A stretch of 50,315 nucleotides of DNA from Acidobacteriota bacterium (GTDB taxonomy: Bacteria > Acidobacteriota > B3-B38 > Guanabaribacteriales > JAGGZT01), in assembly GCA_021161905.1 (NCBI GenBank), contig JAGGZT010000056.1, positions 1 to 50,315 of the forward strand. Direction: 5' to 3'. Shown piece by piece: positions 28,109-31,575 of this stretch; position 1 is the first letter of the stretch, and each line of letters starts with the position of its first letter. The translations under genes were made by a program, and so were the position numbers. The notes under the pieces were generated by a model. The model did not search any database. It was not told the DNA's origin and saw only the letters and a program-made list of their open reading frames with translations.

Positions 28109-30631
28109 TTATGAACCATCGCCGAAGAACCGAGAAAGGGCGGAAAGGATCTCTTTCTTACTCCCCTTTACTATACGGCAGGGGGGAAGGGAACGAAGGA
28201 AGAAAGCGCCATAACTCTTTTCCACTATCCTCCTATCCAAGATGAGGATGGCTCCACGATCGGACTTCCTCCTTATGAGCCGTCCCAGCCCCTGGCGAAA
28301 TTTGATAACTGCCTGAGGAACCGAGAGCTCAAAGAAAGGGTTTCCTCCCTGGTGCTCGATATACTCTATTCGCGCCTCGAGCACCGGATCGGTGGGAACG
28401 CGGAAGGGAAGCTTGGTAAGCACTACGCAGGAAAGCGCCTCCCCAGCGACATCGACCCCCTCCCAGAAGGAATCGGTGGCAAAGAGAACCGAATGAATAT
28501 CTCGCTTGAACCTCTCGAGGAGCTTATGACGGGGCTCATCCCCCTGTTTAAAGGAGACGATCCCCAATTCTGAAAGAAGAGCCTCAAGGGAGGAGAAAGA
28601 GGAAACAAGATGGGAAAAGGAGGTGAAAAGGACAAACGCTCTCCCCCGGGTTATCCTAAGCGCTTCGAGCAGGAACTCATTCACCGCCTCAAGATAACCG
28701 GGTACCTTGGGGGAGGGAATATCGACCGGGATGCCGATTATCGTCTGCTTCTCATAATCGAAAGGAGAGGGAAGAAGAAGTTCGATAACCCTCTCCCTGT
28801 TAAGGAGGTCAAGCCCCAACCGATCCTTTATGAACCCGAAGTTTCCCCCGGTGGTTAGGGTGGCTGAGGTCATTATCACCGTGCCGAATCGGCTGTAGAC
28901 CGCCTCCACCATCTCCGGAGCGATAAGGAGGGGGGATGAATTCAGCTCAACTTTTCTCCTCTTCTCGGATACCACCAGCCACCGCACTCGCTCCTCATCC
29001 TGAGGGGCAAACCCCTCCTTGATGAGGAACGATGCCTCCTCTACCCTGGTAGCGAGCACCGAGAGATCGATAAGCTGATGGGAAAGCTCCTCCTTCATTT
29101 CAGGGGGAAACCGGCGACAGGACTTAGCCAACTTGGTGAGATCATTGGCAAACAGGTTGAGCTTGAGGGAAAGTTCCTCCACCTTCTCTGAAGCGATCCT
29201 CCGGAAGCGCTCCTTCGAGGCGATCTTCTCGGTGATCCGAAGCTTCCTCTCCTCACCTCCTTCATCCTTCGCCTCCTCGCGGACGAATGATGCGATCTCA
29301 TCGAAGACCGAATCAGCAAAATCGATGAGGGAGGAGACGGTGGGGATGAGCTTCTCATCTATCCTCCTTACGATCGCCTCCCCCCCATCAAAGGCGAATC
29401 CTGACCCGAGCTTTATGATCTTCCCCCGGAGGAAAGGAAGAACCCCCTTCCCTTCCTTCTTTGGGTGGTAGAGCTTGAGGAGGAGTCTTCGCAACCCTGC
29501 CCTGGTGATCCTCGTCCCGAAATAGGAGGTGGCGATATCCTCCAGGTTGTGCGCCTCATCGAGTATCAACCGGTGATAGGCGGGGAGGATGGAGAGCTCA
29601 CTCCCTGCACCGATCTCCTTTCGTAAGGAAAGATCAGCGAAGAGAAGATGGTGGTTCACCACCAAGATGTCGGCAGAGGCGAGTCTCCTCCGCGCCTTGT
29701 TCAGGAAACAATCGTTGAAGTAAGGGCATTTTGAGCGGAGACAATAATCGGATTCCGACTTAAGCTCATCCCACACCGATTGTTTGGGGATGAAGTTGAG
29801 ATCGGCAAGATCGCCGGTGGAGGTACTCCTCGCCCAAGCTATGAGGGCATTAAGTAGCTCCTTATCCTCATCATCGGCATAGAGGGTGGGTGATTCCCGA
29901 ACCGCTTCAAGCTTTCTCAGGCAGAGGTAATTCCCCCGCCCCTTGGCGAGCAGAGCGGTAAACTTTATGGGTAGCGTTTCCCCAAGCAGAGGGATATCCT
30001 TATGGATGAGCTGTTCCTGAAGGTTGATCGTATTGGTGGAAATGACCACCCGTTCCTCGTTAGTCTTTGCCCAGTATATCGCCGGGATGAGATAGGCGAG
30101 CGTTTTCCCGGTGCCCGTTCCCGCCTCGATCAAGGCGATCTTATCCTCGTTGAAGGCAGATATCACCGCTCGCATCATCGCAAGCTGTTCCTCCCTTTCC
30201 TCGTATGAGGGGAGAAGCTTGGCGATCGGTCCTCCGGGAAGAAGGAGCTTTGATAGCTCTTCGAAAGAAAGGGGAGTTTTCTCCTTCCTCTCAAAAGGTT
30301 CAACCACCACATAAACCTGGGAAAGCTCGTTGTTTACGATAAAGCACCCTACCCCATTGGCACCGAAGCGAGCAGCAAGGGTGAGATCGGCATCGGATGG
30401 AGAAAGAACCCCTGAGGGGTGGTTGTGGATGATCACATCGCCGGGCTCAGCCAGCTGAGAGATGGCGGGAACCGCGTCTTCGCTCCCCCGGGCTAAGGGG
30501 ATTACCTCCACCACCCGTTTTTTCTCATCGGTCCTGCCCAAAAAGAAAACCTCCCGCCCCTCTGCCTCTGCTATCTCCTTCCTCATCCTCGTCCGTGCTT
30601 CATCACTTATTAGTTCGCTTAGCCTCCTCAT
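28109..30631 (-). CDS. DinG-type helicase fused to an N-terminal JAMM (MPN/JAB) domain
   Basis: 840 residues. Residues 1-115 form a JAMM-type domain: Glu27 and H69-N-H71-x7-Ser79-x2-Asp82 exactly match the zinc-peptidase motif of RadC/Mov34/JAB proteins. From about 140 the protein is a superfamily 2 XPD/DinG helicase: EAGTGTGKT (Walker A, Lys176), DEAHNLED (box II), and one cysteine in YLCLRK plus YCLRSKCPYFNDC as four candidate iron-sulfur ligands; the C-terminal half ends in FRQGLGRLIRRKSDRG (motif VI). DinG unwinds DNA, including D- and R-loops. The JAMM part takes the place of the exonuclease domain found in Bacillus DinG. It overlaps the prenyltransferase gene by ATGA, apparently by position only. 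Helicase call strong; domain fusion seen directly. Confidence 0.88.
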   Translation of the reverse strand: MRRLSELISDEARTRMRKEIAEAEGREVFFLGRTDEKKRVVEVIPLARGSEDAVPAISQLAEPGDVIIHNHPSGVLSPSDADLTLAARFGANGVGCFIVNNELSQVYVVVEPFERKEKTPLSFEELSKLLLPGGPIAKLLPSYEEREEQLAMMRAVISAFNEDKIALIEAGTGTGKTLAYLIPAIYWAKTNEERVVISTNTINLQEQLIHKDIPLLGETLPIKFTALLAKGRGNYLCLRKLEAVRESPTLYADDEDKELLNALIAWARSTSTGDLADLNFIPKQSVWDELKSESDYCLRSKCPYFNDCFLNKARRRLASADILVVNHHLLFADLSLRKEIGAGSELSILPAYHRLILDEAHNLEDIATSYFGTRITRAGLRRLLLKLYHPKKEGKGVLPFLRGKIIKLGSGFAFDGGEAIVRRIDEKLIPTVSSLIDFADSVFDEIASFVREEAKDEGGEERKLRITEKIASKERFRRIASEKVEELSLKLNLFANDLTKLAKSCRRFPPEMKEELSHQLIDLSVLATRVEEASFLIKEGFAPQDEERVRWLVVSEKRRKVELNSSPLLIAPEMVEAVYSRFGTVIMTSATLTTGGNFGFIKDRLGLDLLNRERVIELLLPSPFDYEKQTIIGIPVDIPSPKVPGYLEAVNEFLLEALRITRGRAFVLFTSFSHLVSSFSSLEALLSELGIVSFKQGDEPRHKLLERFKRDIHSVLFATDSFWEGVDVAGEALSCVVLTKLPFRVPTDPVLEARIEYIEHQGGNPFFELSVPQAVIKFRQGLGRLIRRKSDRGAILILDRRIVEKSYGAFFLRSLPPCRIVKGSKKEILSALSRFFGDGS

Positions 30632-31536
30632 CTTACCCCCTTGGAAAGGAGAAAGCCTACGGCATAAAGAAGCCCCACTGAAAGGTAGAGGAGCATCATC
30701 CCTCGATTGGCAGGAAGGAGCCTCTCCCCATCCTCGTAGTTGAGGAGCGTATGTCTAACCACGAAAAAAGCCAGGGGAAGGGGTATTAGGGCGAGAAGCG
30801 TCTTCTTGGGGAATAAACCAAGAAAATGGAAAAGGATGATGAGGAAAAAGGCAAAAGCTATAAGGATCGAAAAGAGGATCGCCCCTCCCCTCTTCCCTAA
30901 CCGAACCACCAAGTTCCTCTTCCCCACCCTATTATCCCCTTCATAATCTGGTATCTCGTTTATCATAAGAAGGGCGGTAATGAGGAGGGAAACCGGTAGT
31001 GAGGCGTAAAGGGGGGAAACTTTAACCTCCCCGGCAAATAGATAATATGAGCCGAGAACGATGAGAACGCCAAAGACTACCCCCACAGCGAGCTCCCCCA
31101 AACCACGCGAAGCCAGCTTGATCGGAGGAGCGGTATAAAAGAAACCTATAAAAGCCCCGCTCACTCCGAGGAGAAAAACCGGGAGCCCACAGGTGAAGGT
31201 GAGATACCCTCCCACAATAAGGGCAACGGCGAACGAGGTAAAACTTATCAGGAGCACCTTCTTAGGAGAGATCAACCCCTCCTTTATCAGACTGCTTCCG
31301 CCGTAAAGATCGGTCTCTTCCCTCTTTTCCTTGAGGTCAGCACCGCTTAGGTAATCATAGTACTCATTGGCGCTATTTGCTCCGCCGTGAAGGGCGATCA
31401 ACCCGAGAATAAGAAGCAGGAAACGCCTCGAACTGAAAGGAAACCCCATAAAGAGGGCTACCGCGGTCCCGAGGATGGCAGGAACGATTACCGCGATGAA
31501 AAAGGGGGCTCTTAATACCCGAAGGATGAGAAGCAT
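30628..31536 (-). CDS. UbiA-family prenyltransferase, MenA-like
   Basis: 302 residues, about nine membrane helices. The two Asp-rich catalytic motifs are clear: NSANEYYDYLSGAD in loop 2-3 and NEIPDYEGDNRVGKRNLVVRLG in loop 6-7. The second text is close to 1,4-dihydroxy-2-naphthoate polyprenyltransferase (menaquinone synthesis) rather than UbiA or heme O synthase, but other UbiA paralogues cannot be excluded. I start it at the ATG with AGGAGG nine bases upstream; an in-frame TTG 10 codons earlier has no ribosome site. No other men genes are present. Its own promoter lies upstream. Confidence 0.75.
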   Translation of the reverse strand: MLLILRVLRAPFFIAVIVPAILGTAVALFMGFPFSSRRFLLLILGLIALHGGANSANEYYDYLSGADLKEKREETDLYGGSSLIKEGLISPKKVLLISFTSFAVALIVGGYLTFTCGLPVFLLGVSGAFIGFFYTAPPIKLASRGLGELAVGVVFGVLIVLGSYYLFAGEVKVSPLYASLPVSLLITALLMINEIPDYEGDNRVGKRNLVVRLGKRGGAILFSILIAFAFFLIILFHFLGLFPKKTLLALIPLPLAFFVVRHTLLNYEDGERLLPANRGMMLLYLSVGLLYAVGFLLSKGVR

Positions 31537-31575
31537 AAAACCCTGCCTCCTATTATTTATACTCAACCATCAGAG

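Follow-up and report, generated by a model that had tools for sequence, protein, structure and literature searches.

A RadC-Like JAMM Domain Fused to a YoaA/DinG-Type Helicase: Distribution, Active-Site Conservation and Possible Function

Introduction

The locus described in this article raises the question of why a JAMM (MPN) domain, the fold of a family of metal-dependent hydrolases, should be joined in one chain to a DinG-family iron-sulfur helicase, and what it might do there. The first-pass annotation of the window (the whole stretch of 50,315 nucleotides analysed) was aware of no described function for this arrangement. As regards function, this statement stands within the literature searched; the arrangement itself is already described, having been named by Cheng 2025 (PMC11981726) and mentioned in an earlier paper (PMC5512222), as far as the cited parts of these sources go.

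Cheng 2025 defines "RadC-like DinG" as one among ten subgroups (PMC11981726, section 3.8), with a YoaA-like core, without HolC, and with an E, two H and a D as the putative centre; the modelled example is from Desulfuromonas soudanensis, and the function of the subgroup is said there to have been the subject of no research so far. A 2017 paper from a different group mentions that RadC is found fused to DinG/RAD3-like helicases and, in the passages cited, makes the case for a nucleic-acid-processing role (PMC5512222), which a 2012 paper advances for the whole RadC clade (PMC3482391). In the literature searched, no activity is described for any domain of this clade. What is new in this analysis is a census of the domain and its active site.

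Gene and Domain Architecture

Positions 28109-30631 form one unbroken open frame of 840 amino acids, determined here to lie on the minus strand, which the first-pass annotation had not given. Its features are the following.

28109-30631, minus strand: gene of the RadC-like JAMM / DinG (YoaA)-type helicase, 840 aa, from the ATG start through the stop
30287-30631, minus strand: predicted N-terminal JAMM/MPN domain, residues 1-115 (Pfam RadC; AlphaFold2 pLDDT 92; MPN matches)
30551-30553, minus strand: E27, putative catalytic Glu in the JAMM motif (codon check; invariant in 231/231 detected domains)
30419-30427, minus strand: H69-N70-H71, with the two putative zinc-ligand His (codon check; invariant in 231/231)
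30386-30397, minus strand: JAMM-motif residues S79 and D82 (codon check; invariant in 231/231)
28112-30205, minus strand: DinG/YoaA-type helicase, residues 143-840 (Pfam, NCBIfam; full-length AlphaFold2 model; alignment to DinG 6fws)
30101-30127, minus strand: Walker A, E169-T177, EAGTGTGKT (codon check; alignment of full-length proteins)
29708-29923, minus strand: stretch with Cys237, 297, 302 and 308, candidate [4Fe-4S] ligands (invariant in 54/54; codon check)
29549-29560, minus strand: DEAH box, residues 358-361 (codon check)
30628-31566, minus strand: UbiA-family prenyltransferase gene, upstream, context only, not a conserved partner

The claim that residues 1-115 carry a complete JAMM motif (Glu27, H-N-H at 69-71, Ser79, Asp82), and that the remainder is a DinG-family helicase bearing Walker A, a DEAH box and four candidate cluster cysteines, was borne out by Pfam, NCBIfam and a codon-by-codon check of E27, H69, H71, S79, D82, Walker A, DEAH and Cys237/297/302/308. 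The protein has the JAMM/MPN+ pattern E ... HxHx7Sx2D. Pfam RadC (PF04002) matches residues 14-89 (profile 9-91 of 121) with 24.4 bits in the whole protein (cut-off 22.1) and with 31.0 bits when the N-terminus is isolated, and Helicase_C_2 (160 bits), DEAD (42.7) and DEAD_2 (22.5) lie above their cut-offs. In NCBIfam the best match is YoaA, with 599 bits against an equivalog cut-off of 680, and the RadC cut-offs are missed (20.8 vs 180 and 17 vs 133.85 bits).

Other identities were considered and rejected. CasDinG (Csf4) gave 123 bits to NCBIfam csf4 against a cut-off of 400, and Prok-JAB (PF14464) was below the Pfam cut-off for the window protein and had zero matches across the window's own genome. 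A link to defence was set aside as well, the strong PADLOC matches being type IV DinG helicase models that fall on the helicase part; there are also weak matches to other families.

The stop of the UbiA-family gene and the helicase ATG overlap as ATGA. These two genes, adjacent in the window, are separated by a beta-lactamase-like gene in another genome of the same order (L003:3426-4403).

Predicted Fold

The AlphaFold2 model of the whole protein, built with 54 sequences, has a mean pLDDT of 90.4 and a C-terminal helix at residues 825-837. Its helicase part aligns to 6fws (Z 27.8), which we take to be the E. coli DinG structure, and to S. aureus DinG; since the whole-model structure search covers the helicase part only, the N-terminal domain was folded separately. 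Residues 1-139 alone gave a pLDDT of 92.1. With this model, Foldseek placed RadC 2qlc at the top of the PDB matches (E 3.1e-5), with BubCD and Rpn11 next, and VIA-align gave Z 9.8 for BubCD, 9.7 for Rpn11, 9.5 for PfJAMM1 and 8.6 for RadC 2qlc, where rows differing by less than about 1 Z count as ties. When PDB sequences were searched with a profile, 2qlc again ranked first (E 3.5e-5). In the predicted structure the N-terminal domain is thus a JAMM/MPN fold and not something else, the point that the first-pass annotation had proposed to check by structure prediction, and judged from sequence it is closest to RadC; the later D-H motif of RadC is D/N-N in the fusion domain.

Distribution and Genome Context

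That other genomes may hold the arrangement, as suggested at first pass, is confirmed by a scan of genome contigs, which returned 158 related stretches of which 80 were kept, and by phylum samples. The kept loci come from Geobacter and kin, Desulfuromonas, Dadabacteria, Acidobacteria, Spirochaetes, Brocadia, Sumerlaeota and others, and the motif-bearing frame continues into the helicase Walker A at 80/80, some being interrupted by contig ends or frame breaks. Two metagenome-assembled loci (L053 and L110) have the helicase frame broken between its N and C halves, by sequence error or a real frameshift.

The fusion domain occurs in 11/396 sampled genomes of the window's own phylum, the window's included; by shared contig coordinates this phylum includes L053, an Acidobacteria MAG. 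A clean gap separates the fusion domains (146-214 bits) from plain RadC, which reaches at most 37 bits. The phylum around G071 includes a Dadabacteria MAG, and 34/57 of its genomes match over the full length from residue 20 or earlier; in the phylum of a Treponema MAG the domain is found in 123/296 sampled genomes (rows of at least 44 bits counted). The fusion architecture is real, widespread in bacteria and already named "RadC-like DinG". A further locus of the own phylum (L125, G215:C1 288865-289050) is possibly another fusion: there, a 759-codon open frame has a JAB domain of the RadC type close to its end.

A conserved operon partner was sought and rejected: gene clusters other than the helicase are common to at most 17 of the 78 loci with a usable frame, and no top cluster is clearly repair-linked. 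HolC, the partner of YoaA, was not found in the window's genome and was detected in 1/32 fusion-bearing genomes; this sole HolC (chi) match (G052:C26:33127-33525) is either true co-occurrence or contamination. A separate RadC was likewise not found in the window's genome. Canonical RadC (match above 100 bits) coexists in 27/32 of the fusion-bearing genomes reached via the loci, so the fusion is not a simple RadC replacement.

The neighbourhood bears on the proposal that the JAMM domain acts like other JAMM peptidases on a ubiquitin-like or sulfur-carrier protein, with the helicase merely placing it. BubCD and Rpn11 are among the fold matches; nevertheless, no conserved neighbour is seen (best 17/78 loci), and Aravind's group considers RadC unlikely to hold the ubiquitin-tail groove in the parts of their work cited (PMC5512222, PMC3482391), which makes this explanation highly improbable.

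Conservation of the Active Site

The JAMM residues and the four cysteines are kept in 54/54 aligned full-length proteins, that is, the window's and 53 of the 80 fetched loci, partial and near-duplicate rows being excluded. The census is the better test of conservation because the pattern used to fetch the 80 loci itself contained H-N-H. E27, H69, N70, H71, P72, S79 and D82 are identical in 231/231 domains (219 distinct) detected at E 1e-8 or better, two degenerate copies (L196 and L032) lying outside this set, which comprises the 80 named loci, 18/34 of those in the phylum around G071, 121 of the Treponema-MAG phylum, 11 of the window's own phylum and the window itself, with some genomes present twice. 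Only these seven positions, G49 and I98 are fully invariant. In the Treponema-MAG phylum, 122/123 detected domains from the 296 sampled genomes have an intact E-H-N-H-P-S-D, down to about 31-35% full-length identity among the matches listed; as the census profiles were built on intact domains, they could miss strongly degenerate copies, and divergence like that of Fusobacterium (17-20 bits) falls under the thresholds. Five domains of that phylum (L167, L168, L171, L172 and L173) carry insertions between H-N-H-P and S-x2-D and keep all ligands.

The conservation of G49 (full) and R48 (84%) near a strand end is in line with the idea that the JAMM domain acts on nucleic acid: as a metal-dependent nuclease, or as a nucleic-acid hydrolase of another kind, it would cut or trim the strand released by the helicase, as is thought for the exonuclease domain of ExoDinG. 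Its N-terminal position equals that of the nucleases in other DinG fusions, EndoDinG and ExoDinG being on record (PMC11981726), and a nuclease-like role has been proposed for the RadC clade in the passages cited (PMC5512222, PMC3482391). On the other hand, the literature searched holds no described JAMM nuclease, the DALI search of Cheng 2025 gave metalloproteases and zero nucleases (PMC11981726, parts cited), and the fold matches obtained here are MPN proteins, with no nuclease among the matches listed. This activity is considered somewhat unlikely.

Degenerate Copies and Loss of the Domain

Two full-length relatives have lost the site. One (L196, G672:C3:211306-214200) is an independent degenerate copy reading V-S-V-H-R-S-D, with E27 replaced by V and H-N-H-P by S-V-H-R. 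The other (L032:3974-6442, Fusobacterium vincentii) matches over its full length at 35% identity and has S, R-T-T and E in place of E27, H-N-H and D82; its N-terminus matches the fusion-domain profile weakly (17.0-19.6 bits) and gave no match to Pfam RadC. The string "Fusobacteri" is absent from the main text of Cheng 2025 (PMC11981726). The L032 record is a 2.1 Mb "plasmid", probably a mislabelled chromosome because it is chromosome-sized with a single annotated feature. Ligand loss in homologues, named at first pass among the refuting outcomes, does occur in these two, as rare exceptions only.

In a tree of 107 helicases, of which 75 carry the domain, 2 are degenerate and 30 lack it, all domain-bearing helicases fall on one side of a 100% branch; it is a quick LG+G4 tree whose outgroup consists only of plain DinGs from the own phylum, with long branches flagged, four rows without usable frame skipped and rows not drawn at random. 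Ten helicases without the domain are nested inside the domain-bearing clade, which by parsimony implies about nine losses (10 changes, of which 8 are forced by starred branches, one of them being the outgroup split). Extra upstream DNA of six of these domain-less helicases contained no domain, and L183, which retains the last part of it, may be a truncation rather than a whole loss.

The JAMM domain is dispensable to the helicase and, where kept, almost always keeps its active site, which favours catalysis over a mere binding role. Loss of the site usually comes with loss of the whole domain (about nine losses vs two degenerate copies), as expected if catalysis is its use. E27 and S79, which we take to be catalytic residues and not structural zinc ligands, vary no more than the His and Asp do. 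These observations weaken the "DNA-binding device" offered as an option in the first-pass annotation, and they speak against a non-catalytic binding or regulatory module (for DNA, a protein partner or dimerisation) whose ligands would be kept for zinc-supported folding. The degenerate copies that remain in full-length helicases, and pExoDinG with its dead N-terminal domain in the same superfamily (PMC11981726, parts cited), favour such a module, which is nonetheless quite improbable given that whole-domain losses outnumber degenerations.

Proposed Function

By sequence and model, the protein has a JAMM domain ahead of the helicase, a JAMM/MPN fold, an unbroken and very strongly constrained metal/catalytic site and an intact helicase core that includes the cluster cysteines. 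The preferred reading, with a probability of roughly 0.4, is that of a YoaA/DinG-type iron-sulfur helicase with an in-cis catalytic JAMM zinc hydrolase that would act on DNA-bound or crosslinked protein or peptide. The JAMM domain would bind zinc and E27 would activate water; the helicase would track 5'-3' on single-stranded DNA, as is known for DinG/XPD, and carry the hydrolase to opened DNA or stalled forks, where the bound or crosslinked protein or peptide would be cut or trimmed while the helicase exposes it.

Peptidase activity is somewhat more likely than nucleic-acid cleavage and is ranked ahead by little, a balance that rests on family knowledge. It is supported by the match of the MPN fold to the metallopeptidases Rpn11 and PfJAMM1 and by the fact that the JAMM enzymes characterised so far are peptidases (PMC5512222, parts cited); it is weakened by the sequence being nearest to RadC, with the nuclease-like role proposed for it, and by the lack of a conserved neighbour to supply a protein substrate. 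The catalytic reading itself is weakened by the persistence of two degenerate copies in otherwise full-length proteins.

A more specific form, in which RadC-like DinG is a self-contained helicase-metalloprotease that pulls single-stranded DNA while the JAMM domain cuts trapped or crosslinked proteins, is unlikely. If true, many bacteria would have a repair route in which a single chain both unwinds and proteolyses, and this would be the first activity for the RadC clade. A fusion fixed to a helicase of known type is a good place to ask what RadC-clade JAMM domains do, offering an unvarying active site with natural degenerate and domain-less relatives as controls. Some hosts, among them Geobacter and its kin, can be cultured in the laboratory.

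Comparison with Known Systems

The closest known system is RadC-like DinG as delimited in the cited section of Cheng 2025 (PMC11981726), with which the window protein shares the domain order, the E/H/H/D site, the YoaA-like core with its CCCC motif, the C-terminal helix and the absence of HolC, and from which nothing sets it apart; the fusion is thus described, and a known role, which the first-pass annotation had coupled to such a description, is not part of it. RadC (PF04002, 2qlc) has in common the motifs E-V-F, R-G, H-N-H-P-S-G and P-S-x2-D, the H-N-H-P signature of the fusion domain being that of RadC, whereas the window protein covers only part of the profile, scores far under the NCBIfam RadC cut-offs and has a helicase fused. 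With YoaA/DinG helicases it shares the helicase core and the four cluster cysteines; it differs from YoaA in the extra N-terminal domain, a score below the equivalog cut-off and the lack of HolC co-occurrence. The JAMM/MPN+ metallopeptidases (Rpn11, PfJAMM1, BubCD) share the MPN fold and the complete E/HxH/S/D, and carry HSH or HTH where the window domain has HNH; the latter is of RadC-clade sequence and without a known ubiquitin-like partner. Finally, ExoDinG, pExoDinG and EndoDinG, also described as DinG fusions (PMC11981726, parts cited), likewise place an enzyme domain ahead of the DinG core, theirs being nuclease folds and not JAMM, and pExoDinG, with its dead N-terminal domain, is a parallel to the degenerate JAMM copies.
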